64,000 bases of DNA from Leisingera sp. JC1. GTDB lineage: Bacteria > Pseudomonadota > Alphaproteobacteria > Rhodobacterales > Rhodobacteraceae. The translations under genes and the position numbers were made by a program. Positions 12,834 to 63,328 of this stretch are shown piece after piece; the first letter of the stretch is position 1; every line of letters begins with the position of its first letter. The notes below the pieces were generated by a model. That model did not search any database. It saw nothing but the letters and a program-made list of their open reading frames with translations, and was not told the origin of the DNA. Location: positions 222,421 through 286,420 of the forward strand of contig NZ_LYUZ01000001.1 in assembly GCF_001679925.1 (NCBI RefSeq). Reading direction: 5' to 3'.

Positions 12834-12931
12834 GGCTCCCGCGCCTTTGCAGAGCATCACAGATGCCCGGCAAAGCCTTGGGTCCGGCGCCGCGCTGAAG
12901 CGCGGCGCGGCAGCGCGCAGGGCGCGCTGCC
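12834..12931. repeat. Dispersed hairpin element, copy A
   Basis: Begins GGCTCCCGCGC. A short hairpin GCATC-aca-GATGC (12854-12866) is followed by CTTGGGTCCGGCGC, then a 9-bp hairpin (12887-12908, loop TGAA) and another 9-bp hairpin (12909-12931). The same order of parts recurs near 44993, 55788 and 63176. It lies between convergent pobA and the NAD(P)-binding gene. Confidence 0.7.
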
Positions 12932-12958
12932 TGGCCCAACGCCGCCCAAGGCCCGGCG

Positions 12959-13633
12959 TCAGCCGACCGCCAGGGCGGGGGCGGGAGCGCCCCAGGCAAC
13001 CGTCAGTTTCCGGTGGCTGCCGCGCGGTGCCTCAGCCAGCTCCAGCAGGGCTGTACCGAAATCTGCAAAGGAAATCTTAGAGTTGCCCTCTGCGTCGGTA
13101 ACCAGCGTGTCAGTTCCAAAGCGGTAACTGCCGGTTTGGGGCCCTTCTGACAGGATCGCGGGCGGGCGCAGGCAGGTCCATTGTGCCTCAGTCTCCGCGT
13201 CCAGCAGCGCGTCCTGTGCGGCGCAGGCCTCGGCAATCGGGCGGACGCTGTCGGGCAGGAAGCCTGGTGCGTTCAGCACCGTGTGGCCGCTGCCGTCTGC
13301 CAGTTTCAGGGTTGCGGCGCCGCCGGTGACGAGCGCCGGAATGCCGGCCAGCCGCGCGGCCGTCAGCGCATTGCGGGTCAGCGGCACCAGATCCGCCTCC
13401 CGGCCTGCGGGTGGCCTCAGGGCGCTGATGACCAGATCGTGACCCCTGGCGGCTTCTGACGCGGCCTGTGGCTGGTCCAGCAGGTCCAGTGCCAGCAGTG
13501 TTACATTCGGGCCAACGGCGCCAAGGGCCTCCGGTTTGCGCGCCACGGCTGTCACGTGGTGGCCGCGGGAAATTGCTGCCTGCAGTGCCGCGCCGCCGAC
13601 ATCGCCGGTGGCACCGAAAAGAATTATCTTCAT
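12959..13633 (-). CDS. NAD(P)-binding (NmrA/YwnB-like) protein
   Basis: 224-residue atypical SDR. The N-terminal MKIILFGATGDVGG is the nucleotide-binding loop of the NmrA/YwnB type, followed by VTAVARKPE, where the Arg suggests NADPH. The central AAQDALLDAETEAQWTCLRPP resembles the substrate region of this group. Members are often flavin-reductase-like or redox-sensing proteins; the function here is unknown. A strong ribosome site (AAGGAG, six bases before ATG) and an unusual double palindrome overlapping the promoter imply tight regulation, probably by a MarR-, HxlR- or TetR-type repressor. No such regulator is encoded next to it. Confidence 0.82.
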   Translation of the reverse strand: MKIILFGATGDVGGAALQAAISRGHHVTAVARKPEALGAVGPNVTLLALDLLDQPQAASEAARGHDLVISALRPPAGREADLVPLTRNALTAARLAGIPALVTGGAATLKLADGSGHTVLNAPGFLPDSVRPIAEACAAQDALLDAETEAQWTCLRPPAILSEGPQTGSYRFGTDTLVTDAEGNSKISFADFGTALLELAEAPRGSHRKLTVAWGAPAPALAVG

Positions 13634-13644
13634 GCTGTTCTCCT

Positions 13645-13696
13645 TTTTATCTTGATGTCGAGATACAAACTTTTAAATCTCGACGTCAAGATAAAA
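13645..13696 (-). promoter_or_regulatory. Double palindromic operator overlapping a promoter
   Basis: Two 20-base arms (13645-13664 and 13677-13696) are inverted copies matching at 19 of 20 positions, separated by 12 bases. Each arm is itself nearly palindromic (ATCTTGATGTCGAGAT). On the minus strand a -35 candidate TTGACG (13684-13689) and a -10 candidate TATCTC (13660-13665), 18 bases apart, lie one in each arm, so bound repressor would cover both. The shape resembles MarR-family operators. Start codon is 12 bases further on. Confidence 0.75.
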
Positions 13697-13810
13697 TTTT
13701 CCGGCGAAGGCTTAATGCGCCCAGTCAGGGGCTGCAGCAGGCTTGGCAGCGCCGGGCTGGGCGGCTAGGTCTGAAAGGAACCGCAACGAAGCGCCAGGGA
13801 GGGCCCGCCC

Positions 13811-14332
13811 ATGCAGATGAGTGACCAGAAGGATATCGCCGCCGATCCGGCAACCGTCTATGCAGCGCTGCTGACGCCGGAGGTTCTGAAAGCTTGCGTG
13901 CCCGGGGCGCAAGAGGTGACCGGCACGCCTCAGGACGGGTTCGAAGCCACGGTCACCCAGAAGGTCGGGCCCGTCAAAGCAACCTTCAAAGGGCAGGTGA
14001 CGCTGTCGGATCTGGTCGAAAACGAAAAGCTGACTATCTCCGGTGAGGGCAAGGGCGGCGCGGCCGGCTTCGCCAAGGGCGGGGCTGTTGTGACGCTGGC
14101 GCCGTCTGAAACCGGCACATTGCTGTCCTACAACGTGGAAGCCAAGGTCGGCGGCAAGCTGGCCCAGCTGGGCAGCCGGATCATTGATGGTTTTGCCAAG
14201 AAGATGGCGGATCAGTTCTTTGTCAATCTGCAGTCCCACCTGGCGCCGGAAGAAGAGGGCGGCGATGGTGCTGCACCGGATGAGGGTGAAGAAAAGAAAG
14301 GCTGGTTCAGCAAGGTGACAGGCCGCGGCTGA
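13811..14332 (+). CDS. CoxG-like SRPBCC domain protein
   Basis: 173 residues. Residues about 1-145 form an SRPBCC/START-like fold of the carbon monoxide dehydrogenase subunit G (CoxG) family: PATVYAALLTPEVLKACVPGAQEV near the start, KVGPVKATFKGQVTL in the middle, and LGSRIIDGFAKKMADQFF at the end. An acidic linker follows, ending in KKGWFSKVTGRG. CoxG-type proteins bind lipid or assist membrane docking of molybdenum hydroxylases. No CO dehydrogenase subunits are near, so this is a stand-alone member. ATG at 13811 or 13817; the AGGGAGGG site favours either. An ABC exporter follows 110 bases later. Confidence 0.85.
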   Translation: MQMSDQKDIAADPATVYAALLTPEVLKACVPGAQEVTGTPQDGFEATVTQKVGPVKATFKGQVTLSDLVENEKLTISGEGKGGAAGFAKGGAVVTLAPSETGTLLSYNVEAKVGGKLAQLGSRIIDGFAKKMADQFFVNLQSHLAPEEEGGDGAAPDEGEEKKGWFSKVTGRG

Positions 14333-14443
14333 TCCCTGCGCTGGCGCACAGGCCATTCTGCGGCCTGATACGATGCGCAGGGCTGGCAGGCGCGGCAAAC
14401 CGCCGCTAGGGTGGCCGGGATTTGAGACCATCCCGGAGGCACC

Positions 14444-15403
14444 ATGGCGGCAATCCTGTCAATCCGCGATCTGCGCAAAACATATGATGGCGGTTTTCAG
14501 GCGCTGAAAGGCGTCTCGCTGGATATAGCTGAAGGGGAAATCCTGGCGCTGCTCGGGCCTAACGGCGCGGGCAAGACCACGCTGATTTCAACCATCTGCG
14601 GCATTACCACGGCAACGTCTGGCAGTGTCAGCGTTGGCGGGTTCGACAACGTCAGCCAATTCCGGCAAGCGCGTGCCCTGATCGGGCTGGTGCCGCAGGA
14701 GATTACGCTGGAGCCTTTCACCAAAGTTCTGGACACGGTCACCTTCTCCCGCGGTCTGTTCGGCAAGCCTGCCAGCCCGGCGCTGGTGGAGGACGTCTTG
14801 CGCAAGCTGTCGCTGTGGGAGAAGCGGGACAGCCGGATAATGGACCTGTCTGGCGGAATGAAGCGGCGGGTGCTGATTGCCAAGGCGCTGGCGCATGAGC
14901 CGCGCATCCTGTTCCTGGATGAACCGACGGCGGGCGTAGACGTCGAACTGCGCAAGGACATGTGGGAGATCGTCCGGGAGCTGAAGGCGGACGGTGTCAC
15001 CATCATCCTGACCACCCACTACATCGAAGAGGCCGAAGCGATTGCCGACCGTGTCGGGGTGATCACCGGCGGCGAGCTGCTGCTGGTTGAGGAAAAAGAG
15101 CAGCTGATGGCGCGGATGGGGCAAAAGCAGCTGGAAGTGCAACTGACCGCGCCGGTCGAGGCAATCCCTGAGGCGCTGTCGCAGCACAATTTGCAAATCG
15201 TCAATGGCGGCGGGGCGCTTCTCTATACCTATGACGCTCGGGCGGAGCGGACTGGCATCACCACACTGCTGAACGATGTGGCCCAGGCCGGACTGGTGCT
15301 GGCGGATGTGCAGACCCGGGAGTCCAGTTTGGAGGATATTTTTGTCGGTCTTGTCTCTGGCGGACCGGCAGCAAAAGACGCAGCCGCAGGAGATGCAGCA
15401 TGA
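14444..15403 (+). CDS. ABC-2 type transporter ATP-binding protein
   Basis: 319 residues. Walker A is GPNGAGKTT (about residue 38), the Q-loop is in [10 protein letters not shown], the signature is LSGGMKRR, Walker B is [10 protein letters not shown], and the H-loop is [17 protein letters not shown]-terminal extension of about 90 residues with a [19 protein letters not shown] pattern is typical of ATPases of drug, antibiotic or polysaccharide ABC-2 exporters. Its stop overlaps the permease start in ATGA, so the two are translationally coupled and form one exporter. Substrate unknown. Confidence 0.93.
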
Positions 15404-16161
15404 ACTGGACCGCAGTTGCCACAATCTACAAGGCGGAAATGGCGCGCTTCTGGCGCACCTTTCTGCAAAGCTTCATCTCGCCGGTCCTGTCCACTTCGCT
15501 CTATTTCGTGGTGTTTGGAAGTGCCATCGGCAGCCGCATTCAGGAGGTCGACGGGGTCGAATACGGCGCCTTTATTGTGCCTGGGCTGGTGATGTTGTCG
15601 GTGATCACCCAGAGCATCAGCAATGCGTCCTTCGGGATCTACTTCCCGAAGTTTATCGGCAATATCTATGAGATCCTGTCGGCGCCAATCAACTTCCTGG
15701 AGGTTGTGGCGGGCTTTGTCGGTGCGGCAGCGACCAAATCGCTGTTCATTGGCACGGTGATCCTGTGCACCGCCTCACTGTTTGTGGATCTTTCAGTGCA
15801 GCACCCGCTGGCGATGGTGGCATTTCTGGTGCTGACCTGCCTCAGCTTCTCCCTGATGGGCTTCATCATCGGTATCTGGGCCGGGAATTTCGAACAGCTG
15901 CAGCTGGTGCCGTTGCTGGTGGTGACGCCGCTGGTGTTCCTGGGCGGGTCTTTCTATTCGATTTCGATGCTGCCCCCGGTCTGGCAGACGATTACCCTGT
16001 TCAACCCGGTCGTCTATCTGGTGTCGGGTTTCCGCTGGGCCTTCTTTGGTCAGGCCGATGTGCCGGTGCTCCTTAGTCTGTGTGCGATTGGCGGGTTCAC
16101 GCTCGCTTGCGTGGGCGTCATCTGGTGGATCTTCAAAACAGGCTGGCGCATCCGGGCCTGA
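15400..16161 (+). CDS. ABC-2 type transporter permease
   Basis: 253 residues with about six membrane segments and the ABC-2 signature around [17 protein letters not shown] near the C-terminus. The N-terminal region [25 protein letters not shown] is typical of the YadH/NodJ-like branch. It pairs with the overlapping ATPase gene upstream to form an inner-membrane exporter. The cargo is not shown by sequence or context. A 10-bp hairpin lies 22 bases past the stop. Confidence 0.92.
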
Positions 16162-16183
16162 TCCGGGCGATGCCTTCCTTCAA

Positions 16184-16206
16184 GGCGGCAGCCGCAGGCT
16201 GCTGCC
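16184..16206 (+). terminator. Hairpin after the ABC exporter genes
   Basis: GGCGGCAGCC, loop GCA, GGCTGCTGCC: ten pairs with one G-T. There is no T-run, so termination here is only possible, perhaps with Rho. Confidence 0.4.
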
Positions 16207-16347
16207 CATTAAGGCGGGCTGGGAGCAATTCGGCGGGGGCAAACCAGCGTTGCATTTATGCCCGCGGCTGTGCGGTTTTTGCATTTCACGGAAATTCCCA
16301 AGTCCGCGCACCTTGTTTCACCCCGGACGGCCCTCTACATCGGCGCC

Positions 16348-17145
16348 ATGAGATTTCACCTGCCTTTCCTGAAAAGACAGCCGCTGGTGGCAGTGGTGCG
16401 CCTGAATGGCGCCATTGGCATGCCCGGCCGCGGCTCCCTCAGCGACGCAGGGCTGGCACCGGTGCTGGAGCGCGCGTTCCGCAAGGGCAAACCTGCTGCC
16501 GTCGCACTGGAGATCAACTCTCCTGGCGGTTCGCCGGTGCAAAGCTCGCTTATCGGCGCCCGCATCCGGCGGCTTTCAGAAGAGCTGGATGTGCCGGTCT
16601 ATGCATTTGTCGAGGATGTGGCAGCTTCGGGCGGCTATTGGCTGGCGGCGGCTGCAGATGAGATTTGGGCCGATGCCAGCTCGGTTCTCGGCTCGGTCGG
16701 GGTGATCTCAGCAGGTTTTGGCGCCCATGTCCTGCTGGCGCGCCAGGGGGTGGAACGGCGCGTCTATACCGCGGGCGAAAGCAAATCGATGCTGGACCCG
16801 TTCCGCCCGGAAAACCCGGAGGATGTGAAGCGCCTAAAGGTCATCCTGAACGACATCCACGCCAATTTCATCGACCATGTCACCGAACGCCGCGGGTCCA
16901 AGCTGCACAGTGAGGAAAACCTGTTCACCGGCGAGGTCTGGCTGGCGCGCCGGGCAGAAGAACTGGGGCTGATCGACGGTATCGGCCATCTGAAGCCCAA
17001 GATGCAGGAACGGTTTGGTGAGAAGGTCCGCTTCCGCCGCTATGGCCTGAAGAAACCGCTGCTGAGCCGCTTCGGTATTCAGGTCGCGCAGGATGCGCTG
17101 GCCGGGATCGAGGAGCGCGCCGAATACGCGCGTTTCGGTCTCTGA
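16348..17145 (+). CDS. S49-family signal-peptide-peptidase-like serine protease
   Basis: 265 residues, the short form of SppA/SohB-type proteases. The catalytic serine is Ser94 in VAASGGYWLA, and the general-base lysine is Lys146 in AGESKSMLDPF. The oxyanion region is INSPGGSPVQSS (about 57-68). The start at ATG 16348 gives MRFHLPFLKRQPLVAVVRL, a short amphipathic or anchoring N-terminus rather than a cleavable signal. These enzymes degrade leftover signal peptides or membrane protein fragments. It is followed with a single-base gap by a 57-residue membrane protein. Confidence 0.92.
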   Translation: MRFHLPFLKRQPLVAVVRLNGAIGMPGRGSLSDAGLAPVLERAFRKGKPAAVALEINSPGGSPVQSSLIGARIRRLSEELDVPVYAFVEDVAASGGYWLAAAADEIWADASSVLGSVGVISAGFGAHVLLARQGVERRVYTAGESKSMLDPFRPENPEDVKRLKVILNDIHANFIDHVTERRGSKLHSEENLFTGEVWLARRAEELGLIDGIGHLKPKMQERFGEKVRFRRYGLKKPLLSRFGIQVAQDALAGIEERAEYARFGL

Positions 17146-17146
17146 C

Positions 17147-17320
17147 GTGCTGTTCAAGATCGTTGCAACCTTTCTGGCGGTGATGGCTGTGCTGGCGATG
17201 TTCGGCAAGTTGCGGTTTCCCGGCCAGAAGCAAATAAATTCCAGGCGCTGCCCGTCCTGCGGCCGCTTCAAGATCGGCAAGGGGCCGTGCGCCTGTAATA
17301 AGGGGGATCGTGGCAAATGA
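17147..17320 (+). CDS. 57-residue membrane protein with Cys cluster (unknown)
   Basis: A GTG-started frame between the S49 protease and the antiporter, one base after the former's stop and overlapping the latter's ATG (ATGA). One N-terminal membrane helix (about residues 2-22: FKIVATFLAVMAVLAMFG) is followed by a basic linker and RRCPSCGRFKIGKGPCACNKG, a Cys-x2-Cys then Cys-x-Cys array like a one-knuckle zinc ribbon. Tight packing and coupled starts support a real gene. Function unknown; a membrane-tethered metal-binding partner of the protease or antiporter is an inference. Confidence 0.72.
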   Translation: MLFKIVATFLAVMAVLAMFGKLRFPGQKQINSRRCPSCGRFKIGKGPCACNKGDRGK

Positions 17321-18279
17321 TGCCATGGCTGTATTCGGCGCTTGGTCTGGTCATCCTGCTGCTGGCGGGGGACGCGCTGGTGCGTGGTGCGGTGAATCTC
17401 AGCCTGCGGCTGGGGGTGCCCGCGCTGATCGTCAGCCTGACCATCGTCGCCTTTGGTACCTCGGCACCGGAACTGCTGATCGCGATCAGCGCCGTGCATG
17501 AGGGCGCCGATGGCATCGCAATGGGCAATGTCGTTGGTTCGAACACGGCCAATATTCTGCTGGTGCTGGGCATACCTGCCCTGATGCGGGCCTTGCACAC
17601 CAGCGAGTGCAGCACCCGCAGAAATTATATCTTTATGCTGGGTGCCTCGGTTCTGTTCATCGGCCTTGCCTTTGGCGGCACCTTCACCGTCTGGTCGGGG
17701 CTGATCCTTCTGGCGGCGCTGGCAGGGGTGCTGGCGGTGGCCTTCCGCGACGCTCGCAACCACCGGCGCAACGGAAATGGCAAGGGCTGCGCTGCGGATG
17801 CAGACTTGGAAGAGATCGAGGAAGCCGACCCGGACATGCCTTACTGGCGCGTTGGCCTCTACCTGCTGCTGGGCCTGATCGGCCTGCCGCTGGGCGCCGA
17901 CCTGCTGGTCGATAACGCTACAATCATTGCCCGCCTCTACGGCGTCAGCGAAACCGTGATCGGCCTGACGCTGGTGGCAGTCGGCACCTCGCTGCCGGAA
18001 CTGGCCACCACTGTGATGGCAGCGCTTCGCCGCCAAGCGGATGTGGCGCTGGGCAATGTGATCGGCTCCAACATGTTCAACTTGCTGGCCATCATAGGTA
18101 TTGCAACTTTCATCGGCCCGATCAGCGTGGATCCGGAATTCCTGCAGTTCGACCTGTGGGTGATGCTGGCCGCCTCATTGCTGCTGATCCCCTTTGTCTT
18201 CTTCAAGCAGGACATCACCCGCATCTGGGGTGTCATTCTGACGGCGCTCTATCTGGCCTATCTCTTCGTCCTGTTCTAA
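17317..18279 (+). CDS. Calcium/sodium antiporter (CaCA family, YrbG-like)
   Basis: 320 residues with the two inverted alpha-repeats of the Ca/cation antiporter superfamily: FGTSAPELLIAIS (about residue 46) with GNVVGSNTANI, and VGTSLPELATTVM (about 225) with GNVIGSNMFNL. About ten membrane helices are split by an acidic cytoplasmic loop (DADLEEIEEADPDM). It exchanges Ca2+ for Na+ or H+ across the inner membrane. Its ATG overlaps the stop of the 57-residue gene, so the two are translated together. Confidence 0.94.
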   Translation: MMPWLYSALGLVILLLAGDALVRGAVNLSLRLGVPALIVSLTIVAFGTSAPELLIAISAVHEGADGIAMGNVVGSNTANILLVLGIPALMRALHTSECSTRRNYIFMLGASVLFIGLAFGGTFTVWSGLILLAALAGVLAVAFRDARNHRRNGNGKGCAADADLEEIEEADPDMPYWRVGLYLLLGLIGLPLGADLLVDNATIIARLYGVSETVIGLTLVAVGTSLPELATTVMAALRRQADVALGNVIGSNMFNLLAIIGIATFIGPISVDPEFLQFDLWVMLAASLLLIPFVFFKQDITRIWGVILTALYLAYLFVLF

Positions 18280-18312
18280 CTCTGTTTCCAAGGCAGCAGC
18301 AGGGAGGCACAG

Positions 18313-19089
18313 ATGCGTGCATTGGTGACCGGGGCGGGCAGGCGGCTGGGGCGCGCCATGGCTTTGGAGCTTGCAGCGCAAGGGTATGACGTCGCTGTCC
18401 ACTATGCGTCTTCCGCAACTGAGGCAGAGGCGACGGCGGCGCAGATCCGCAGCATGGGCCGGCAGGCCGCGGCAGTACAAGCAGACCTGCTGCAGGAGGA
18501 TCAGGCCCAGGCTCTGCTTCCGCGCGCAGCTGATAGCCTGGGCGGCGCCATTAATTGCCTGGTCAACAATGCGTCCGTGTTTGAGCATGATACGCTTTCC
18601 ACTGCCTCCCGGAGCAGCTGGGACCGGCATCTGGACAGCAATCTGCGGGCGCCGTTTGTACTGTTGCAGGCCATGGCCGCGCAGGAGATCCCGGTAGAGC
18701 TGGATGCAGGCGGCGAGCCGAGGGCATGGGGGCTGGCGGTCAACATGATCGACCAGCGGGTGCGCAAGCTTACGCCTGACTTCATGAGCTACACACTGGC
18801 CAAATCAGCGCTGTGGACATTGACGCAGACGGCTGCACAGGCGCTGGCTCCGCGGATCCGCGTCAACGCCATCGGCCCGGGCCCGACCCTGCAAGGGCCG
18901 AGGCAAAGCGCGGAGCAATTCGCCCGCCAGCGAAAGGCCACAATTTTGCAGCGCGGCGCGGATACCGAGGATGTCACCGCGGCTCTCAGCTATCTGCTGC
19001 AGGCAAAAGCAGTGACGGGTCAGATGATCTGCGTGGACGGCGGCCAGCACCTGGGCTGGCAGACTCCTGACAGCGACGGCCTTGAGTGA
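18313..19089 (+). CDS. SDR-family oxidoreductase, pteridine-reductase-like
   Basis: 258 residues. VTGAGRRLGRAMA (about residues 5-17) is the TGxxRxLG form typical of FolM/pteridine-reductase-like SDRs, where the Arg favours NADPH. VNNASVFEHD carries the NNAS variant of NNAG, also typical of that group. The catalytic YTLAK is intact, and the end shows VTGQMICVDGGQHL. A dihydrofolate/dihydromonapterin reductase activity is likely but inferred. It follows the antiporter by 33 bases with an AGGGAGG ribosome site. Confidence 0.85.
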   Translation: MRALVTGAGRRLGRAMALELAAQGYDVAVHYASSATEAEATAAQIRSMGRQAAAVQADLLQEDQAQALLPRAADSLGGAINCLVNNASVFEHDTLSTASRSSWDRHLDSNLRAPFVLLQAMAAQEIPVELDAGGEPRAWGLAVNMIDQRVRKLTPDFMSYTLAKSALWTLTQTAAQALAPRIRVNAIGPGPTLQGPRQSAEQFARQRKATILQRGADTEDVTAALSYLLQAKAVTGQMICVDGGQHLGWQTPDSDGLE

Positions 19090-19388
19090 CGCAAACAGGG
19101 AAGAAACCGGCCCTTTCGCTGCAAGTTTTGCACCGTCTAACATGCCGTCACGGAAGCGTTACAAAAGTGCCTTTCTTTTCAAAACCTTGACAGATGGCGT
19201 GAAAAGTTTTTCTTTAAATCAGCACCTTATCAGGTTGCCTAAAAAATAAGCATCCGTCCAAAACCGCTCTGAAATAAGAGAAAAGGCGGGATAGCCCAAA
19301 GATATCTCCGTAGTTATCCACAGCTTCCGTGGATTTCCCGGCTCTTGATCCTGACGGGTAAACATTGCAGCCAAGGACAGGGAATCAT
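19090..19388. other. Non-coding leader upstream of uvrC with a DnaA-box match
   Basis: About 300 bases with no gene I can support. It is more AT-rich than its surroundings. It holds a TTGACA hexamer (19187-19192) with a weak T-rich -10 region, and a perfect TTATCCACA (19314-19322) inside a short dyad ATCCAC-N7-GTGGAT (19316-19334). It probably contains the uvrC promoter. Confidence 0.5.
19314..19322 (+). promoter_or_regulatory. Consensus DnaA box
   Basis: TTATCCACA is the exact consensus bound by DnaA. It stands alone, 67 bases before the uvrC start, with no second box close by, so it is not an origin. It could allow DnaA control of uvrC or occur by chance. Confidence 0.35.
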
Positions 19389-21281: not shown

Positions 21282-21323
21282 GCCGCTCAATTTGGGCTGA
21301 GAGGCAATCGTGCTAAGTCTGAA

Positions 21324-21342
21324 GGGCAGCCGTTAACTGCCC
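21324..21342 (+). promoter_or_regulatory. Leader hairpin abutting a ribosome site
   Basis: GGGCAG, loop CCGTTAA, CTGCCC, immediately followed by the Shine-Dalgarno GGAGGA (21343-21348) of the DUF922-like gene. It may protect the messenger end or tune translation; it could also help end the uvrC transcript, though no T-run follows. Confidence 0.4.
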
Positions 21343-21351
21343 GGAGGAATT

Positions 21352-21963: not shown

Positions 21964-22091
21964 GACCAACACGTCCCGCGTGCTCACGGACCTGATTGCA
22001 GCCGGCCCCCACTGTTTAATGATGCCAGCCATTGCCGAATTTTAATCAACGCCGCTTTCCACTTTTGAAACAGCCGGATAATGTGCGCGGC

Positions 22092-22763: not shown

Positions 22764-23008
22764 TGGATGTCCTGTATTTCGCCTGGGTGCGCGAACGCAT
22801 TGGCCTGCCGCGCGAGCGTGTGGAGACCAATGCCGCTACGGTCGCGGATCTGGTCGAAGAACTGCGCGGGCGCGAAGATCGCTACGCCGCTGCCTTTGCC
22901 GATCTGTCGGCGTTGCGGGTGGCGCTGGACCAGGAACTGTCTGATTTTGACTCACCCCTGGATGGCGTGCGTGAGGTCGCATTCTTCCCGCCGATGACCG
23001 GGGGCTGA
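22763..23008 (+). CDS. moaD: Molybdopterin synthase sulfur carrier subunit MoaD
   Basis: 81-residue ubiquitin-like protein ending in the double glycine PMTGG needed for thiocarboxylation. It carries the sulfur that MoaE inserts into precursor Z. VLYFAWVRERIGLPRE is the usual first strand-helix. The ATG overlaps the pgsA stop by one base, and moaE starts four bases after its end, so the three are one transcript. A GGAGG site inside the end of pgsA drives it. Confidence 0.95.
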   Translation: MDVLYFAWVRERIGLPRERVETNAATVADLVEELRGREDRYAAAFADLSALRVALDQELSDFDSPLDGVREVAFFPPMTGG

Positions 23009-23012
23009 GGCA

Positions 23013-23459: not shown

Positions 23460-23531
23460 GGCCCGGCGGGCAGGGGGCCTCCCGTCAAGCGTTCAATCAT
23501 CAAAAGTTGATTTCCGCCTGTTGGACCGGGG

Positions 23532-23576: not shown

Positions 23577-23589
23577 TGGACCAAGCTAA

Positions 23590-44992: not shown

Positions 44993-45066
44993 GGCTCCCG
45001 CGCGTTTTCTGATTATCGGAGATAATCCCAAAACCCTTGGGCCGGGCGCCCATCTTTGATGGGCGC
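44993..45066. repeat. Dispersed hairpin element, copy D
   Basis: GGCTCCCGCGC, a 7-bp hairpin GATTATC-gga-GATAATC (45011-45027), then CTTGGGCCGGGCGC and a 9-bp hairpin GCGCCCATC-ttt-GATGGGCGC (45046-45066). The part order matches copies A-C, but the first hairpin has a different sequence, consistent with conservation of structure. It lies between convergent YqgE and tsaC genes. Confidence 0.68.
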
Positions 45067-45089
45067 GGGTGCGCTGCGGCTTGCGGTGT

Positions 45090-52495: not shown

Positions 52496-52524
52496 GAGTC
52501 AATCGAGATCGGAGTGCGTGCAAC

Positions 52525-55780: not shown

Positions 55781-55787
55781 AAGGCGC

Positions 55788-55865
55788 GCTCCCGCCCGCG
55801 GTCCGGGGCATCAAAGATGCCTGCCCGCCGTTGGGCCGGGCGCAGCGCTGGCGCGCGGCGCGGCT
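55788..55865. repeat. Dispersed hairpin element, copy B
   Basis: GCTCCCGCCCGCGG, hairpin GGCATC-aaa-GATGCC (55807-55821), GCCCGCCGTTGGGCCGGGCGC, then a GC-rich segment (GCGCTGGCGCGCGGCGCGGC). It begins eight bases after the moeA stop, in the gap before the convergent coiled-coil gene. About 70 of its bases align with copy C. The following ACCTTTTGAAAATACTCG resembles a stretch after copy C. Confidence 0.72.
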
Positions 55866-55940
55866 GCTCTCCATTTTTCACCTTTTGAAAATACTCGCGT
55901 CCCGCTGCCCGGCAGGCAGCACCTGAAAGGCGCGTTCTTT

Positions 55941-56978
55941 CTAGTCAAAGGTCCCGGCAACCCGGCCCACCAGCATGAAGGCGCGGGCAGTGCGGGTGTT
56001 GCCAAGGGCCGAAATCTCGCCGTCGGTCGCCTCGGCCTCGAAATCGGCAAACATCTGGTCGAACCGGCGCAGGAAGTGGTGCGCCGCATCCCGGAAGATC
56101 GGGTCCTGCTTCATACGTGCTGCGGTCAGCGCCAGGGAGGTCCGGTCGCGCACTCCGCCAAGCGCGGCCACCGCACGCCCGCGCGCGCCTTGTGCAAACT
56201 GGCGCCAGATCTCGGGCCGGGCCATGTCCGGGCGCAGGTCGTCCATGTAGATGCCGTCCTGGCTGAGCAGCGTCAGCACATCCTGCGCTGCCTGGATCAC
56301 CTGCGCCGCCTTGCGGTCCTTGAGTGCCGCGCGCAGGGCGGCAAAGCCTTCGGTGTCCTCGGCGGTTTCCGGGAAATTCAGGGCCCGGATGAACTGCTCG
56401 GCAGGCAAGGGCGGCGCGGTGTCTGCGGCCTGGGTGCCAAGCGCCAGCGAGCCCTGCTCGGCGGCGGTCATCTCTGCCGCCTCTGCCGGGATGGCCGGGC
56501 GCAGCGGATTGGCGCGGCGGCTGGTCTGGAAGGTCGCCAATGCGGTTTCGGTCTTGCGGGTGGCCTCGGCGATTTCCTCCAGCCGCTTGGCAACTGAGGT
56601 TTCCGCCACCGCCGCATGCTGCTGCGCCTGCGCCAGGTAGCTTTGGCGCAGCCCGTCGATGGCGGCCTGCAGCTGCTCGCTCTCTTCCCGCATCACCCGG
56701 GCCGAGCGCGCGGCAGAGGCCGCAACCCACAGCATCGCCAGGGGCAGCACCACTGCCAGCACGCTGATGATCAAATCCGCCCACTGCGAAAGCCCGGCAT
56801 CTTCGGGCGCCAGCACAAACGCTCCGGTCACCACCAGCAGCCACAGTGCGCCCAGCCCGATGGCCGCCAGTTCCGCACCGCCCAGGCCGTTGGCCGCTGT
56901 GGGGCCGTCAAGGCGGCGCAGCGGCTGGCTGCCGCCTGGTTTCTGGCCGGAACCCGGACTGCTGCTGGAGCCTGTCAT
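55941..56978 (-). CDS. Membrane protein with coiled coil (unknown)
   Basis: 345 residues. Two membrane helices near the N-terminus (about residues 38-57 and 67-87), then a coiled coil (about 98-150, rich in Glu/Gln/Ala) and an alpha-helical C-terminal domain starting around ALNFPETAEDTEGFAALRAALKDRK. The first 30 residues are polar and disordered. No catalytic motif is visible. It lies 19 bases after greA on the same strand, and copy B of the hairpin element separates it from moeA. Possibly a cell-envelope or division-related protein; no family identified. Confidence 0.75.
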   Translation of the reverse strand: MTGSSSSPGSGQKPGGSQPLRRLDGPTAANGLGGAELAAIGLGALWLLVVTGAFVLAPEDAGLSQWADLIISVLAVVLPLAMLWVAASAARSARVMREESEQLQAAIDGLRQSYLAQAQQHAAVAETSVAKRLEEIAEATRKTETALATFQTSRRANPLRPAIPAEAAEMTAAEQGSLALGTQAADTAPPLPAEQFIRALNFPETAEDTEGFAALRAALKDRKAAQVIQAAQDVLTLLSQDGIYMDDLRPDMARPEIWRQFAQGARGRAVAALGGVRDRTSLALTAARMKQDPIFRDAAHHFLRRFDQMFADFEAEATDGEISALGNTRTARAFMLVGRVAGTFD

Positions 56979-56997
56979 GACCTTGCGGCCTCCCGGA

Positions 56998-57468
56998 TCA
57001 GGAATAGACGATCTTGAGAATCTCGTAGGCGCGCTCGCCGCCGGGCGTGCGCACTTCCACACTGTCGCCTTCGTCCTTGCCGATCAAGGCGCGTGCAATC
57101 GGGGATTTGATGTTCAAAAGACCCGCTTCGATATTGGCCTCATGCTCGCCCACGATCTGCCAGGTCTTTTCTTCGTCGGTGTCCTCGTCCACCACGGTCA
57201 CCTTGGCGCCGAACTTGATGGCGCCGGACAGCTTGGCCGGGTTGATCACATCGGCCAGCGACAGGATGCCTTCCAGCTCCTTGATTCGGCCCTCGATGAA
57301 GGACTGCTTTTCGCGGGCGGAGTGGTATTCGGCATTCTCCGACAGGTCGCCCAGCTCGCGCGCTTCGGCAATCGCCTGGATGATGGCCGGGCGTTCGACG
57401 GATTTCAGGTTCTTCAGTTCGCTTTCCAGCGCGGCGTGACCCGTGGGGGTCATCGGGATCTTTTCCAT
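56998..57468 (-). CDS. greA: Transcription elongation factor GreA
   Basis: 156 residues. Inserts its coiled coil into the RNA polymerase secondary channel and triggers cleavage of backtracked RNA. The coiled-coil half ([49 protein letters not shown], about 13-61, split by turns) carries the tip residues DLSENAEY, and the C-terminal FKBP-like half ends in [15 protein letters not shown]. Length is exactly normal for GreA. ATG 57468 was chosen for that reason. Confidence 0.96.
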
Positions 57469-57713
57469 GTGGTTGGTCCAGGTCGCTCTATTGTTCTTGT
57501 CAGTATGAAAACCGCAGCCCCGCAGCATCTGCCGCGGGGCCTCCGGTCCGGTTGACATTTACCTGACCCAATCCTGCGCCCGAATTCAAGTGGCCGCAGG
57601 GCTTTGCCGCACGCAATTCCGCCTAACGCGGCAGATTGTGCGGCTTTTCCACAGGTTTGCGCGGAAAAATACCGCGGGCAGGGGGCGCAGACCCCGCCGC
57701 CAGCCACAGCAGA

Positions 57714-58094
57714 TCAATCATATTGCACCGCCTCGTATTCGATGCCGTTCTCATCATGGAAGTAGAACCGGCGGCCCGGCTCATAATCGCCATGGTTCAT
57801 CGGGGTGAAGCCGGCGGCCTTAACCGCGGCCTCAGTGGCGTCCAGATCCTCAACGATCACCGCCAGATGGTTCAGCCCGCCAATGATGCCATAGCTTTCC
57901 GGCGCTTTGCCTGCCGCAGTGCGCGGCGTGTAAAGCGCGAGGTAGCTGTTTTCCCCGCCCACATGCACGGTGTAGCCGCCGTTTTTCGCCTCGCCCTCCC
58001 AGCGCACATGCCAGCCAAAGATCTTTTCCATCCAGGCGGCGGTGCCATTGGGGTCCGCCACGGTGACATTCGCATGTTCCAAAACTGCGCTCAT
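57714..58094 (-). CDS. VOC-family (glyoxalase-like) protein
   Basis: 126 residues with two beta-alpha-beta-beta-beta modules of the vicinal-oxygen-chelate fold: LEHANVTVADPNGTAAWMEKIFGW (about 5-28) and LNHLAVIVEDLDATEAAVKAAGF (about 71-93). Metal ligands of the type His7 and Glu near the end (GIEYEAVQY) are visible. Likely a glyoxalase, dioxygenase or resistance protein. It diverges from soxR and its promoter contains a SoxR-like dyad, which suggests redox-cycling drugs or superoxide as inducers. Confidence 0.88.
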   Translation of the reverse strand: MSAVLEHANVTVADPNGTAAWMEKIFGWHVRWEGEAKNGGYTVHVGGENSYLALYTPRTAAGKAPESYGIIGGLNHLAVIVEDLDATEAAVKAAGFTPMNHGDYEPGRRFYFHDENGIEYEAVQYD

Positions 58095-58137
58095 CGTAAA
58101 TCTCCTTCTGCTCTGAGCAAACCTGTTGATGCGACTC

Positions 58138-58168
58138 ACCGTAATTCCTAAACCTAACTTTAGCTCAA
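58138..58168 (-). promoter_or_regulatory. SoxR-type promoter/operator of the VOC gene
   Basis: On the minus strand: -35 TTGAGC, a 19-base spacer, -10-like TACGGT. The spacer contains a dyad CTAAA-N6-TTTAG at 58148-58163. A 19-base spacer is the hallmark of MerR-type activation, and the sequence parallels the E. coli soxS promoter (dyad, then GGAATTA). soxR lies just beyond. Confidence 0.72.
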
Positions 58169-58191
58169 GGAATTTCTTCAGGGAGTTTGCC

Positions 58192-58671
58192 ATGCCCCGA
58201 TCCGCAGGTATTTCCATCGGCTATCTGGCCGAACGCACCGGCCTCGCCGTCTCGGCCATCCGCTACTATGAGGCGCAAGGTTTGGTGGAGCCCTGGCGCA
58301 ACGCTGGCGGCCAGCGCCGCTTCCACCGGGCCGACATCCGGCGGATGAGCTTCATCATGATTGCGCAGCAATTCGGTTTTTCGCTTCCGGAAATCCGCGG
58401 GTTCCTGCGCAGCCTGCCAGGTGGCCGCACACCGACCAAGGAAGACTGGGCCTGCATTTCGGACAGCTTCCGCAGCCACCTGGATCAGCGAATCGAAACC
58501 CTCGTCAAACTGCGCGACAATCTGGATGGCTGCATAGGCTGCGGCTGTCTTTCGCTTCCGAATTGCAAACTTTACAACCCCGAAGACCGGGCGGCACAGA
58601 AGGGGCAGGGACCCCGTTACCTGATGGGAGACCGCCCTGAGACAGAGGCTGCGGCGGAAAATGATCCTTGA
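58192..58671 (+). CDS. soxR: Redox-sensing MerR-family regulator SoxR
   Basis: 159 residues. N-terminal winged helix-turn-helix (ISIGYLAERTGLAVSAIRYYEAQGLV, about 7-32) and a long dimerisation helix. The [2Fe-2S] cluster motif Cys-x2-Cys-x-Cys-x5-Cys is complete: Cys114, 117, 119 and 125 in DGCIGCGCLSLPNC. It responds to redox-active compounds or superoxide. It starts 28 bases from the dyad and diverges from the VOC gene, so it likely controls that gene and itself. Confidence 0.96.
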   Translation: MPRSAGISIGYLAERTGLAVSAIRYYEAQGLVEPWRNAGGQRRFHRADIRRMSFIMIAQQFGFSLPEIRGFLRSLPGGRTPTKEDWACISDSFRSHLDQRIETLVKLRDNLDGCIGCGCLSLPNCKLYNPEDRAAQKGQGPRYLMGDRPETEAAAENDP

Positions 58672-58840
58672 GTGACGAAAATGGACGCACTTTTTGTCTC
58701 AGTTGCCTGTTTTACAGGTGTTTGACGCGGAGTTTGGATTGACCCAAGGGGGCGCCAAACGCTAAGCAGCCGCGAAAGAAAATTGCGCCCGCATGACCCT
58801 GTGGGGCCGGTAGCGAACAGAAAGCCAAGGAGCGCCGCAA

Positions 58841-60490
58841 ATGGCCGAGATTGAACGCGAAGCGATGGAATACGACGTGGTGATCGTCGGGGCCGGCCCT
58901 GCCGGTCTGTCTGCGGCCATCCGCCTGAAACAACTGGACGCCGACCTGCAGGTTGTTGTCCTGGAAAAAGGCTCCGAGGTCGGCGCGCATATCCTGTCCG
59001 GCGCGGTGCTGGACCCTTGCGGCCTGAACGCGCTGATCCCCGACTGGAAGGAAAAAGGCGCACCGCTGAACGTGGAAGTCAAGGAAGACAACTTCCTGAT
59101 GCTGGGCGAGGCCGGCCAGGTCCGCATCCCCAACTTCCCGATGCCGCCGCTGATGAACAACCACGGCAACTACATCGTCTCCATGGGCAACGTCTGCCGC
59201 TGGATGGCAGAGCAGGCCGAGGAAATGGGTGTCGAGATCTTCCCGGGCATGGCGTGCTCTGAGCTGGTCTACGGCGACAATGGCGAAGTCAAAGGCGTGG
59301 TTGCCGGCGAGTTCGGCAAGAACCCTGACGGCACCCCCGGCCCGTCTTACGAGCCCGGCATGGAACTGCACGGCAAATACGTCTTCCTCTCCGAAGGCGT
59401 GCGCGGCTCGCTGTCCAAGGAAGTGATTGCCAAATACGGCCTCTCCGACGGCAAAGAGCCGCAGAAATACGGCGTCGGCATGAAGGAGATCTGGGAGATC
59501 GACCCAGCCAAGCACAAGGAAGGCACCGTCACCCACACCATGGGCTGGCCGCTGGGCTCCAACGCGGGCGGCGGCTCGTTCATCTACCACCTGGACAACA
59601 ACCAGGTTTACGTGGGCTTCGTGGTGCACCTGAACTACAAGAACCCGCACCTGTTCCCCTACATGGAATTCCAGCGCTTCAAACACCACCCGGTGGTTGC
59701 TGATCTGCTGAAGGGCGGTAAGCGCGTTGCCTACGGCGCCCGCGCCATCACCGAAGGCGGCTGGCAGTCGATGCCGAAACTGGTCGCACCGGGCGTGGCG
59801 CTCTTGGGCTGCTCCGCGGGCATGGTCAACGTGCCGCGCATCAAGGGCAACCACAACGCGATGCTGTCGGGCAAGGCCGCGGCCGAAGCCGCCTTTGACG
59901 CGATCAAGGCTGAGCGTTCCGGCGACGAGCTGACCGCCTATGAGGCCGACGTGCGCGAAGGCGCTATCGGCAAGGACCTCAAGATGGTCCGCAACGTCAA
60001 GCCGATGTGGTCCAAGTGGGGCCTCACCGCGTCGCTGGCACTGGGCGGCCTGGACATGTGGACCAACAACCTCTTTGGCTTCTCCTTCTTCGGCACCCTG
60101 GGCCACGGCAAGAACGACGCCCAGTCGACCGAGGAAGCCTCCAAGCACAAGCCCATCGATTACCCCAAGCCCGATGGCGTGCTGTCGTTTGACCGCCTGA
60201 CCAACGTCAGCTTCTCGATGACCAACCACGAGGAAAGCCAGCCCTGCCACCTGCGCCTGGGCAATGAGGACACTCCGATCTCGGTCAACCTGCCGAAATT
60301 TGCGGAACCGGCGCAGCGCTACTGCCCGGCCGGTGTTTACGAGGTGGTCGAAAAGGACGGCAAGCCTGAGTTCGTGGTGAACTTCCAGAACTGCGTCCAC
60401 TGCAAGACCTGCGACATCAAGGACCCGTCCCAGAACATCACCTGGACCACGCCGCAGGGCGGCGACGGCCCGAACTACCCGAACATGTAA
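58841..60490 (+). CDS. Electron transfer flavoprotein-ubiquinone oxidoreductase
   Basis: 549 residues. Passes electrons from reduced ETF to ubiquinone at the inner membrane. FAD motif VVIVGAGPAGLSAAIRLKQ (about 13-31), ubiquinone-binding helices in the middle, and the C-terminal 4Fe-4S ligands in YCPAGVYE and CVHCKTCDIKDPSQN. It follows the SoxR gene on the same strand but after 169 bases, so it is probably its own unit. It supplies the quinone pool that UbiA and the polyprenyl synthase of this window build. Confidence 0.96.
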   Translation: MAEIEREAMEYDVVIVGAGPAGLSAAIRLKQLDADLQVVVLEKGSEVGAHILSGAVLDPCGLNALIPDWKEKGAPLNVEVKEDNFLMLGEAGQVRIPNFPMPPLMNNHGNYIVSMGNVCRWMAEQAEEMGVEIFPGMACSELVYGDNGEVKGVVAGEFGKNPDGTPGPSYEPGMELHGKYVFLSEGVRGSLSKEVIAKYGLSDGKEPQKYGVGMKEIWEIDPAKHKEGTVTHTMGWPLGSNAGGGSFIYHLDNNQVYVGFVVHLNYKNPHLFPYMEFQRFKHHPVVADLLKGGKRVAYGARAITEGGWQSMPKLVAPGVALLGCSAGMVNVPRIKGNHNAMLSGKAAAEAAFDAIKAERSGDELTAYEADVREGAIGKDLKMVRNVKPMWSKWGLTASLALGGLDMWTNNLFGFSFFGTLGHGKNDAQSTEEASKHKPIDYPKPDGVLSFDRLTNVSFSMTNHEESQPCHLRLGNEDTPISVNLPKFAEPAQRYCPAGVYEVVEKDGKPEFVVNFQNCVHCKTCDIKDPSQNITWTTPQGGDGPNYPNM

Positions 60491-60529
60491 CGGGAACGTT
60501 AGCATTTCGGCGTGGTTTCGCCGGATTTT

Positions 60530-60555
60530 ATGGGGCGGTCCTTGGACCGCCCCAT
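60530..60555 (+). terminator. Perfect 12-bp hairpin after ETF-QO
   Basis: ATGGGGCGGTCC, loop TT, GGACCGCCCCAT. No T-run follows; a TTGACG (60562-60567) with TCTTAG (60585-60590), 17 bases apart, comes right after and may be the promoter of the TPR gene. Confidence 0.55.
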
Positions 60556-60626
60556 TGCGTGTTGACGGGCACCGCACTACGCTTTCTTAGAAGAGCAAAG
60601 AGCAGTAAACCGTAAGGGGGTCCCCA

Positions 60627-62342
60627 GTGCCCGTATCCATTCTTCGCACCCTGTCCTGTGCGGCCCTGATGGCCGCAACCGCCGCACCTTCCGTGCAGGC
60701 CGAGGGACTGGCAGGATCCTACCTGGCCGGCCGGGCCGCGACCTACGGCAGCGACTTTGCTGCCGCCGCGCTCTATTACACCCAGGCGCTTGCGCGCGAC
60801 CCGCAGAACCCGCTCTTGATGGAAAACGTCGTGTTTGCGCAGCTGGCGATGGGCAAGGCGGACCTCGCCGTGCCGGTGGCCGAACGGCTGCGCCAGACCG
60901 GCGCCCGCAGCCAGGTGGCGAACATCGTTCTGGCGGGCGGTCTTGCAGCCAAAGGCGACTACCAGGCGATCCTGGACCGCGACTTGGAGCGGGAAGCGAT
61001 CCACCCGCTGGTGGACGGTCTGCTGCAAGGCTGGGCCTATGTCGGCGCGGGGTCTGTCTCCAGCGCGCTGGAAACCTTTGACCGGCTTGCCAAGGACGGC
61101 AGCCTGAAACCCTTCGTGCTCTATCACCGCGCCCTGGCGCTGGCCTCGGCCGGCGACTACGGCGGGGCGGAAGCGCTGTTTGCCGCCGAGGATGGCCGCC
61201 TCGCCACCCTCAGCCGCCGCGCCGCGGTGGCGCGGGTGCAGATCCTGTCGCAGCTGAACCGCAACGACGACGCCCGCGAGGCGCTGGCCGCCGCTTTCGG
61301 CAACAGCCTCGACCCGGGCCTGGAGGCGCTGGACGCGCAGCTCGCTGCCGGTGAAACTCTTGCCTACACCATCGCGCCCAGCCCGCAGGAGGGCATTGCC
61401 GAGGTGTTCTTCACTCTCGGTGCGGCGCTGAACGGCGATACCGCCAATGACTATGTGCTGATGTATGCCCGAATGGCAGCCTCGCTGCGCCCGGACCATG
61501 TGGATGCCATCCTGCTCAGCGCGGGCCTCTTGGACCAGCTGGGCCGTTATGAGCTGTCGGTTGCCACTTACAAGCAGGTGCCCGCCACCCATCCGGACTA
61601 CCACGCCGCCGAAATGGGCCGGGCCGAGGCGCTGCGCCGTGCTGCCAAGCCGGACGCCGCGATTGAGGTGCTGGAGAAACTGGCCCGCGACTTCCCCGAT
61701 CAGCCCAGCGTGAACATCAGCCTCGGCGACCTGCTGCGCCAGCAGGAAGACTATGCCGCCGCTGCCCGTGCCTATGACAAGGCGCTGGACAAGACGCCGG
61801 AGGACTCCTCCAGCCGCTGGTTCCTGTTCTATGCCCGCGGCATCTGCCACGAACGTCTGGACCAGTGGCCGCAGGCTGAGGCCGACTTCCGCGCCTCGCT
61901 GGAACTGGACCCGAACCGGCCGCAGGTGCTGAACTACCTTGGCTATTCCCTGGTCGAGAAAAGCAGCAAGCTGGATGAGGCGCTGGATATGATCGAACGC
62001 GCCGTTGCCGCGCGGCCCGACTCCGGCTTCATCGTCGACTCGTTGGGCTGGGTGCTCTACCGCATGGGCAAGTTCGAAGAGGCCGTCGCGCATATGGAGC
62101 GTGCAGTGGAGCTGATGCCGGTCGATCCGGTGGTCAACGACCACCTCGGTGACGTCTACTGGGCCGTGGGCCGCGCGCGCGAGGCGGAGTTCCAGTGGAA
62201 GCGGGCGCTCTCCTTCATCGACCCGGAGGACACCGACGGCGAAGCCGACCCCGAGCGCATCCGCCGCAAGCTGGAAGTGGGCCTCGATGCGGTTCTGGCC
62301 GAGGAAGGAGCCCAGCCCCTGAAGGTGGCCAATGGCGGCTGA
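60627..62342 (+). CDS. Exported tetratricopeptide-repeat protein
   Basis: 571 residues. Signal peptide MPVSILRTLSCAALMAATAA ending near SVQA. Several TPR units follow, for example AAALYYTQALARDPQNPLL (about 47-65), LLRQQEDYAAAARAYDKALDKTPED (about 370-394) and NYLGYSLVEKSSKLDEALDMIERAVAARPD. The sequence AKPDAAIEVLEKLARDFPDQPSV is another unit. GTG start preceded by AAGGGGG. A periplasmic scaffold; the partner is not known. Its end overlaps ispE by 11 bases. Confidence 0.9.
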   Translation: MPVSILRTLSCAALMAATAAPSVQAEGLAGSYLAGRAATYGSDFAAAALYYTQALARDPQNPLLMENVVFAQLAMGKADLAVPVAERLRQTGARSQVANIVLAGGLAAKGDYQAILDRDLEREAIHPLVDGLLQGWAYVGAGSVSSALETFDRLAKDGSLKPFVLYHRALALASAGDYGGAEALFAAEDGRLATLSRRAAVARVQILSQLNRNDDAREALAAAFGNSLDPGLEALDAQLAAGETLAYTIAPSPQEGIAEVFFTLGAALNGDTANDYVLMYARMAASLRPDHVDAILLSAGLLDQLGRYELSVATYKQVPATHPDYHAAEMGRAEALRRAAKPDAAIEVLEKLARDFPDQPSVNISLGDLLRQQEDYAAAARAYDKALDKTPEDSSSRWFLFYARGICHERLDQWPQAEADFRASLELDPNRPQVLNYLGYSLVEKSSKLDEALDMIERAVAARPDSGFIVDSLGWVLYRMGKFEEAVAHMERAVELMPVDPVVNDHLGDVYWAVGRAREAEFQWKRALSFIDPEDTDGEADPERIRRKLEVGLDAVLAEEGAQPLKVANGG

Positions 62343-63153
62343 GGTCGCAGCGCCCGCCAAGATCAACCTGACCCTGCATGTGACCGGCCGCCGCGAGGAC
62401 GGCTACCACCTGCTGGATTCGCTGGTGGTCTTTGCGGATACCGGCGACCGGCTGCAGCTTGAGCCGGGCCCGGAGTTGTCGCTGCAGGTTTCCGGCCTGT
62501 TTGCAGAGGGGGTGCCTGCCGATCATCGTAACCTGGTGTGGAAAGCCGCCGAGGGTGCCGGCTGGACCGGACAAATCAGTCTCGACAAGCAGCTGCCGCA
62601 CGGCGCTGGTATCGGCGGCGGGTCATCGGATGCCGCTGCGGTATTGCGCACGCTGGCGGGGCAGGGCGCCGGCGTCCCCGCAGACCTGCCGCTGACCCTT
62701 GGCGCCGACGTCCCGGTCTGCATGGCGGCCCGCGCATCCCGGATGCAGGGCATCGGAGAGCAGATAACGCCGGTGGAACTGCCCGAACTTCACGCTCTAT
62801 TGGTCAATCCCGGCGCGCATGTTCCGACAGGCCCGGTGTTTTCCGCGCTTGCCTCACGCAGCAACCCGCCAATGCCGCAGGAGATCCCCGGCTTCGCATC
62901 CGCCGAAGACTGCGCCGCCTGGCTGGCCGAACAGCGCAACGACCTGGAAGGTCCGGCCATCACTGTCGCTCCGGAGGTGGAGCGGGTTCTTTCAGACCTG
63001 CGCGGTTCCCGCCAGGCCTTGCTGGCCCGCATGTCCGGCTCCGGCGCCACCTGCTTTGCGCTCTATCCCACGAAAAAGGCCGCCCTTATGGCGGCTTATG
63101 AGATCGGGGCGGAACATCCCGAGTGGTGGTGCAGCGCGGTTACCCTGACCTGA
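62332..63153 (+). CDS. ispE: 4-diphosphocytidyl-2-C-methyl-D-erythritol kinase
   Basis: 273 residues, GHMP kinase of the MEP isoprenoid pathway: phosphorylates CDP-methylerythritol. APAKINLTLHVTGRREDGYH near residue 5 is the first block; LPHGAGIGGGSSDAAAV (about 86-102) is the ATP-binding loop; MSGSGATCFALYP (about 233-245) is the third. It overlaps the TPR gene by 11 bases in another frame, so they are probably cotranscribed. The product feeds the polyprenyl synthase at the right edge. Confidence 0.96.
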   Translation: MAAEVAAPAKINLTLHVTGRREDGYHLLDSLVVFADTGDRLQLEPGPELSLQVSGLFAEGVPADHRNLVWKAAEGAGWTGQISLDKQLPHGAGIGGGSSDAAAVLRTLAGQGAGVPADLPLTLGADVPVCMAARASRMQGIGEQITPVELPELHALLVNPGAHVPTGPVFSALASRSNPPMPQEIPGFASAEDCAAWLAEQRNDLEGPAITVAPEVERVLSDLRGSRQALLARMSGSGATCFALYPTKKAALMAAYEIGAEHPEWWCSAVTLT

Positions 63154-63175
63154 ACCGATTAATTGCACACAGGGG

Positions 63176-63328
63176 GCTCCCGCCCGCGGAGCAGCGCATC
63201 AAAGATGCTTGCCCGCCGTTGGGGGGGGGCGCCGCGCTGGCGCGCGGCGCGGCACCGCTTGCCAGCAGATTCATCGTTGCAAAAATATTCTGGGGTGAGC
63301 GCCGCAGGCGCGAGGGGCAAAGCCCCTC
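63176..63328. repeat. Dispersed hairpin element, copy C with downstream hairpin
   Basis: GCTCCCGCCCGCGG, hairpin GCATC-aaa-GATGC (63196-63208), TTGCCCGCCGTTGGG, a run of nine or more G, then GC-rich palindromic sequence (GCCGCGCTGGCGCGCGGC) to about 63252, then AAAAATATTCTGGGG and a hairpin GAGGGGC-aaa-GCCCCTC (63312-63328). It lies between convergent ispE and the polyprenyl synthase. Copy B is its closest relative. Confidence 0.72.

Follow-up and report, generated by a model that had tools for sequence, protein, structure and literature searches.

The bacterial interspersed mosaic elements (BIMEs) of enterobacteria were proposed to relieve supercoils between convergent genes, and integron attC sites end in RYYYAAC and GTTRRRY boxes. 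For alphaproteobacteria, passages of PMC3733652 describe CGTC-tagged palindromic repeats, which are small repetitive extragenic palindromes (REPs) of 20-40 bp with an unpaired CGTC at one end. Here we analyzed a hairpin element with four copies in a 64,000-nucleotide (nt) stretch of Leisingera sp. JC1 (contig NZ_LYUZ01000001.1, positions 222,421 to 286,420; hereafter the window), which the original prediction regarded as a mobile REP-type element reused as a two-way terminator, or as an RNA family. The four copies are members of one structured family, more than chance would give. Judging from sequence, this family may represent a novel type of transcript-end signal in marine Roseobacter-group bacteria, one that lacks the usual U run.

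A structured family in Leisingera and related genera

Alignment A1 contained 27 copies selected by sequence alone, for CTCCCG and the core, and not by pairing. CTCCCG and the core letters are invariant in A1 because the copies were chosen for them; the pairs were not so chosen. In the JC1 genome (5.19 Mb in 168 contigs), the core pattern TTGGGYCSGGCGC had 30 matches versus 10 for the reversed pattern, and CTCCCG lay upstream at the expected spacing in 25 of the 27 matches that were fetched. A covariance model built from A1 (R1) gave 89 matches in this genome at E ≤ 1 and 52-72 matches per genome at E ≤ 0.01 in 20 congeners, for each of which 72 candidates were scored; a deeper search of two congeners gave 135 and 117 matches at E ≤ 0.1. 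Searching the genome and its relatives in this way extended the four predicted copies to a large structured family. Outside the genus, R1 matched in four of the 16 other Rhodobacteraceae genera searched and in none of 24 genomes from other families. When 295 genomes of the family were surveyed at E ≤ 0.001 with 14 candidates scored per genome, 36 matched, JC1 and one congener included.

An exact pattern was found in 53 stretches in named genomes, which belong to Leisingera, Phaeobacter, Pseudophaeobacter, Roseobacter, Ruegeria, Tropicibacter, Falsiruegeria, Tritonibacter, Epibacterium, Seohaeicola and Rhodovulum, together with several members that are uncultured or were assembled from metagenomes and an assembly labelled Nocardioides. 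The last, Nocardioides marinus DP1N28-1, carries the element at two loci (L153 and L175). Because the genes flanking the copy at L175 are 89% and 99% identical to JC1 proteins, this assembly is probably mislabelled. A second descriptor (a CTCCCG-type start, TTGGG and two paired positions) gave 49 matches in 1.13 Mb, of which 43 were intergenic, with 85-89% of the DNA coding, and all 43 were also R1 matches. The remaining 6, all in called genes and one of them beside an R1 match, were all that this descriptor added to a wider family beyond R1. By inspection, degenerate copies carrying TTGGGCATAGCGC were also observed.

The element is approximately 85-100 nt long and comprises two hairpins. Hairpin 1 spans CUCCCG to UUGGG and has a conserved C.C mismatch, a variable stem and a loop of 3-5 nt; a tandem U.C/C.U mismatch recurs in less than half of the copies. 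Hairpin 2 is a GC-rich stem that most often begins 4 nt past TTGGG and usually has no U run behind it. It was found in 80 of the 84 measurable copies among the 89 in JC1, with stems mostly of 7-11 bp, the upper value being the limit of the finder.

The prediction of selection on base pairing was strongly supported by covariation in A1, by a larger set of copies and by stems that diverged among genera and still pair. In A1, two position pairs were standard in 27/27 copies with the bases swapped (16 C-G, 9 G-C and 2 A-U at one; 16 G-C and 11 C-G at the other). The named structure had 87.0% standard pairs versus 75.2% after shuffling, and its covariation score was 0.319 versus 0.122, which none of 500 shuffles reached; slid controls remained at or below 0.097, so that covariation exceeded chance. 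The number of changed cells was likewise above all 500 shuffles and all slides. The larger set consisted of 127 distinct copies, obtained from 134 R1 matches after one without an anchor and six duplicates were removed, in which pairs were counted by distance from two anchors without alignment. The +2/-1 pair was Watson-Crick in 126 of these (104 C-G, 20 G-C and 2 A-T; shuffled mean 89), +4/-3 in 124 (shuffled mean 79) and +7/-6 in 95 (shuffled mean 44), and slid controls gave 0.20-0.31 versus 0.731. Mismatches recurred at the interleaved positions: +3/-2 was C.C in 100 copies, +5/-4 was T.C in 54 and +6/-5 was C.T in 46. An apical stem was present in 123/127 copies; its loop measured 3 nt in 76 copies (often AAA or ACA), 4 nt in 38 copies and 5 nt in 9. 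Considered as a pointer to the functional strand, the wobble count of G.U versus A.C was 10 to 51, dominated by positions of the internal loop.

Placement and retention of the copies

Genes were called with our own codon-usage script, on which all placement counts depend. Eighty-four of the 89 JC1 copies were in classifiable gaps; the five left out were two at contig edges and three in called genes (in two short doubtful open reading frames, one of 213 nt scoring 6.1 and one of 210 nt scoring 6.8). Convergent gaps held 55 copies, tandem gaps held 10 on the strand of the upstream gene and 14 on the opposite strand, and divergent gaps held 5. Among gaps of at least 75 nt in four contigs, a copy was present in 23/90 convergent, 13/314 tandem and 2/154 divergent gaps, a convergent enrichment with p = 1.8e-8 versus tandem and 2.2e-9 versus divergent gaps. 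The predicted link with convergent gaps is thus borne out, but copies are not confined to them: 55/84 classifiable copies are convergent. Copies were not scattered inside genes (3/89).

Copies start close behind genes of their own strand. Of the 65 copies with a same-strand gene upstream, 55 have their start in the range from 27 nt upstream to 40 nt downstream of the stop codon of that gene, and 36 of 41 single copies in convergent gaps are within 40 nt of the same-strand stop, versus 21.8 expected under uniform placement. Eleven opposite-strand pairs with a separation below 400 nt account for 22 of the 89 JC1 copies. In 10 of these pairs the two copies face one another, and the eleventh is back to back; the idea of a two-way terminator would fit these facing pairs. 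In named genomes, 72 matches were distributed as 28 convergent, 21 tandem on the same strand, 14 tandem on the opposite strand, 3 divergent, 6 at edges and none in called genes, at loci picked by the exact class-A pattern with Leisingera included, so that the orientation bias may not be general. Among tandem copies scoring at least 60 bits, 20 were on the same strand versus 6 on the opposite strand. No tRNA genes were found near 11 opposite-strand copies that were checked, and no Rfam genes at gathering score near 18 of 19. Two divergent-gap copies in JC1 (G000 C114:127470-127557 and C98:39690-39780) end 43 and 46 nt short of a called start codon. Because these distances are so short, the two copies may be in 5' leaders and act as attenuators.

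The same gaps are occupied in related genomes. A same-strand copy adjoins YqgE, IspE and the monooxygenase gene in 17, 18 and 15 of 21 genus genomes, respectively, JC1 included. In three further congeners the copy is separated from the monooxygenase gene by an extra gene (an enoyl-CoA hydratase in L259, the one typed of the three) and starts 13-17 nt past that gene. The same gaps hold copies in Phaeobacter, Pseudophaeobacter, Seohaeicola, Falsiruegeria and Tropicibacter, and at orthologous gene pairs of other genera the letters of the stem differ yet still pair (for example, C24:41791 versus L149 and L183). Copies also follow an RNA gene: the signal recognition particle (SRP) RNA is followed by a same-strand copy in 13/21 genus genomes, with a spacing of 30 nt in JC1. 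Of the 34 genomes of other genera in which the family was matched, 18 were searched behind SRP RNA and none had a copy there at E ≤ 0.01; a single match had 17.4 bits and E 0.24. Because orthologous copies are shared and the SRP copy is present in 13/21 genus genomes and 0/18 others, we take the family to be old and kept, with gains and losses. By eye, six of the eight genus genomes without the SRP copy (L304, L305, L314, L315, L318 and L320) have a row of other hairpins there instead, L309 has neither the element nor other hairpins, and L323 seemingly has the second hairpin only.

Candidate functions and alternative explanations

Tentatively, we read the copies as a family of non-canonical elements with two hairpins that would act as RNA at the 3' ends of transcription units in the Roseobacter group; this is the likeliest of the readings, and we give it slightly less than an even chance. 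From the computed results, namely a family with covarying pairs, placed past a stop codon or the SRP RNA, mostly in convergent gaps and retained over the long term, we infer that a copy would be transcribed at the end of an RNA and would fix its 3' end. An ending or 3'-capping of transcripts would fit the placement as well as the copies behind SRP RNA and behind the extra gene. Rho or another factor might stop RNA polymerase at or just past the hairpins with no need for a U-tract; in addition or instead, the transcript might be trimmed back to hairpin 2, which would then block exonucleases. Facing copies would serve both convergent genes, and our guess is that opposite-strand copies above start codons might stop divergent or antisense transcripts. 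A more specific version, which we consider unlikely, is a new class of transcription-unit boundary in which the folded strand, with its ladder of pyrimidine mismatches (C.C, U.C and C.U; the complementary strand would have G.G and tandem G.A), would be read by a dedicated factor that ends or trims transcripts without a U-tract, either orientation shielding neighbours from convergent or divergent antisense transcription.

Several observations weigh against a 3'-end role. In JC1, 19/84 classifiable copies, including the five in divergent gaps, have an upstream neighbour on the opposite strand and read away from it, starting 60-213 nt above the start codon called for that gene, and tandem gaps of both samples pooled hold 31 same-strand versus 28 opposite-strand copies. 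In only 25/41 single-copy convergent gaps is the distance from the 5' end of the copy to its own gene shorter than that from the 3' end to the opposing gene (p = 0.21). As to pairing, pairs changed on both sides in A1 numbered 9, not above shuffles (73/500 reach this), and the 127-copy set leans towards the tested pairs, since it was found with R1, which scores them. At least four T in the 8 nt after hairpin 2 were present in 7/80 copies. A canonical terminator precedes the copy in 6/10 far copies versus 1/55 near ones, and because of these six, far copies are not the sole terminator at their sites; over a wider stretch, a canonical signal was found at 13/55 near ends, and at 12 of these it lies within or behind the copy. 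The near/far contrast was dropped as functional evidence, since the available room alone predicts 0.6/55 and 4.0/10. In favour of a 3'-end role, canonical terminators were less frequent at convergent ends with a same-strand copy (5/24) than at those without a copy (68/161), with 6/18 at ends that have an opposite-strand copy only, by a crude finder that was positive in 25/640 coding controls.

Those 12 of 55 near ends with a hairpin and T-run, together with the GC hairpin close behind genes, are what an ordinary intrinsic terminator whose hairpin letters were conserved by chance would predict. This explanation seems very improbable: 73 of the 80 second hairpins have fewer than four T in the next 8 nt and so lack the U-tract that accompanies the hairpin of an intrinsic terminator, and conserved letters with an extra mismatch-bearing hairpin would be superfluous in a plain terminator. 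A boundary site acting as DNA is rather unlikely in our view. Its dyad would be extruded, or a nucleoid protein or gyrase would bind it in DNA form, so that supercoils between convergent genes would be relieved in the way suggested for BIMEs. Such a site would suit the convergent enrichment, the facing pairs, the mixed orientation in tandem gaps and the five divergent-gap copies. It would also suit the orientation relative to replication. By GC skew, 30/43 JC1 copies on four contigs are in leading-strand orientation versus 396/789 genes on three contigs (p = 0.018), a rough figure because the skew of C114 is mixed and that of C81, excluded from the gene figure, changes sign. In the congener G002 the counts are 52/69 sites versus 233/368 genes (p = 0.055), but the orientation split in G010 is no better than shuffles (53/200 reach it). 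With a modest excess over genes and no signal in G010, replication polarity was rejected as the main driver; copies still track replication somewhat more closely than genes, which would allow for a DNA-level role. What tells against such a site is the clustering of 5' ends at most 40 nt from same-strand stop codons and the copy behind SRP RNA in 13/21 genus genomes. The covarying pairs and the kept C.C mismatch suggest that a folded single strand is recognised, for which an extruded DNA strand would do equally.

The copies could also be REP-like palindromes that were once spread by a transposase and are now mostly fixed where insertions harm least, their structure kept by the copying mechanism and not by a function in the cell. 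Dozens to more than 130 copies per genome, inverted pairs, an SRP copy known in this genus only (13/21 versus 0/18), copies behind a canonical terminator and the orientation bias with replication would all be expected of such relics, which we nevertheless find fairly unlikely. Y1 transposase (PF01797) had no match in JC1 and in 14/20 congeners and matched in six, whereas all 20 carry 52-72 copies with or without such a match; with the transposase mostly absent, a REP driven by a REP-associated tyrosine transposase (RAYT) was rejected. By eye, neither end of the 27-copy alignment, of which the 3' boundary is approximate, has a conserved unpaired GTAG or CGTC tag. Contig and orientation counts in the two deeply searched congeners rest on the best 150 of 252 matches, and 5 of these 150 are on smaller contigs versus approximately 24 expected by length. 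Orthologous placement within the genus weighs against recent mobility, and the same gaps are occupied across the genus and five other genera with stems diverged but paired; the SRP copy is absent from the 18 other-genus genomes. The mobile REP element of the original prediction is not supported, given the mostly absent transposase, the kept orthologous gaps and the absent tag.

If transcripts do end at these two-hairpin elements, U-tract-free transcript ending would operate at dozens of sites per genome across a large marine group, and covariation together with the fixed position past the last stop codon or SRP RNA would give a direct handle for tests. The family also shows that hairpins repeated between genes can be long-inherited components, retained because of their structure, and need not be recent mobile repeats.

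Window copies and comparison with known systems

All four copies are present in the window where they had been reported, corrections of single letters apart, and each is between two convergent genes by our gene calls (Table 1). By Pfam, the flanking genes encode proteins with a flavin adenine dinucleotide (FAD)-binding domain (a monooxygenase, previously called pobA) and an NAD(P)H-binding domain for copy 1, AlgH-like (YqgE) and Sua5-YrdC (TsaC) for copy 2, MoeA and a neighbour without a family for copy 3, and a GHMP kinase (IspE) and a polyprenyl synthetase for copy 4. The elements are separated from the stop codons of the FAD monooxygenase, YqgE, MoeA and IspE genes by 40, 29, 6 and 21 nt, respectively. 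The minus-strand partner of copy 1 overlaps the 3' hairpin of copy 1 and the end of the opposing gene, and an opposite-strand partner is present at this gap in 17/21 genus genomes, JC1 included.

Table 1. Copies of the element in the window with their R1 bit scores
Feature	Position	Strand	R1 score (bits)
Copy 1, G-C type: hairpin 1, core TTGGGTCCGGCGC, GC hairpin 2	12834..12922	+	78.4
Inverted partner of copy 1, weak, facing copy 1	12896..12989	-	32.2
Copy 2, stem GATTATC/GATAATC	44993..45080	+	70.5
Copy 3	55787..55875	+	75.2
Copy 4, core altered to TTGGGGGGGGGCGCC	63175..63264	+	61.6

The letters given earlier required some correction. Copy 3 reads CGCTCCCGC and not GGCTCCCGC, whose first G is absent, and the core claimed for all copies is changed in copy 4, which therefore does not match TTGGGYCSGGCGC. 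The interval 63176-63328 proposed for copy 4 does contain the element, but the rest of it includes a separate hairpin beside the opposing gene. RNA folding of the four copies alone was only moderately unusual (z = -3.0, -2.7, -0.1 and -2.6). At the ends of opposing genes (approximately 63258-63335 and 55870-55905, both on the minus strand), another recurring motif resembling GAGTATTT or GAATATTT was seen, which adjoins a GC hairpin at the former site and also occurs in congeners. With a crude pattern, this motif was found at 8/161 convergent ends without an element and at 4/18 with an opposite-strand copy only.

No Rfam covariance model matched in the window at E ≤ 1. At 20 other loci the sole match overlapping a copy was Acido-Lenti-1 in L068, with 25.2 bits, below its gathering score of 37. 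Known RNA families were thus rejected as the identity of the element, as none was over threshold and only SRP RNA and an S-adenosylmethionine (SAM) riboswitch were found as neighbours. A description of the element was not found in searches of an open-access library, including passages of PMC3733652, PMC12306157, PMC11109978, PMC8632094 and PMC2864571. Integron attC sites resemble it in a GTTGGGC that fits the GTTRRRY box, in variable terminal structure and in conserved unpaired bases; however, its 5' end is CTCCCG and its copies are dispersed at gene ends, not in cassette arrays. By eye, the same 25 of 27 fetched core matches have CTCCCG where RYYYAAC would be, so that the two attC end boxes were not matched.

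Intrinsic terminators share a GC-rich hairpin soon past the stop codon, whereas the element as a rule has no U-tract and adds a conserved mismatch-bearing first hairpin. The CGTC-tagged repeats, as far as passages of PMC3733652 describe them, are likewise alphaproteobacterial intergenic palindromes without a dedicated transposase and are often dimers. The element differs from that description in having CTCCCG and TTGGGCCSGGCGC in a two-hairpin plan, and CGTC letters occur only inside hairpin 1 of some copies. REPs, BIMEs and REP doublets forming hairpins (REPINs) with their RAYTs also come as many short intergenic hairpin copies, in inverted pairs and mostly at gene ends. In contrast to these, the element described here is 85-100 nt long with two different hairpins and no terminal GTAG tag, has no Y1 match in most carriers tested, and is kept at orthologous sites across species and some genera.

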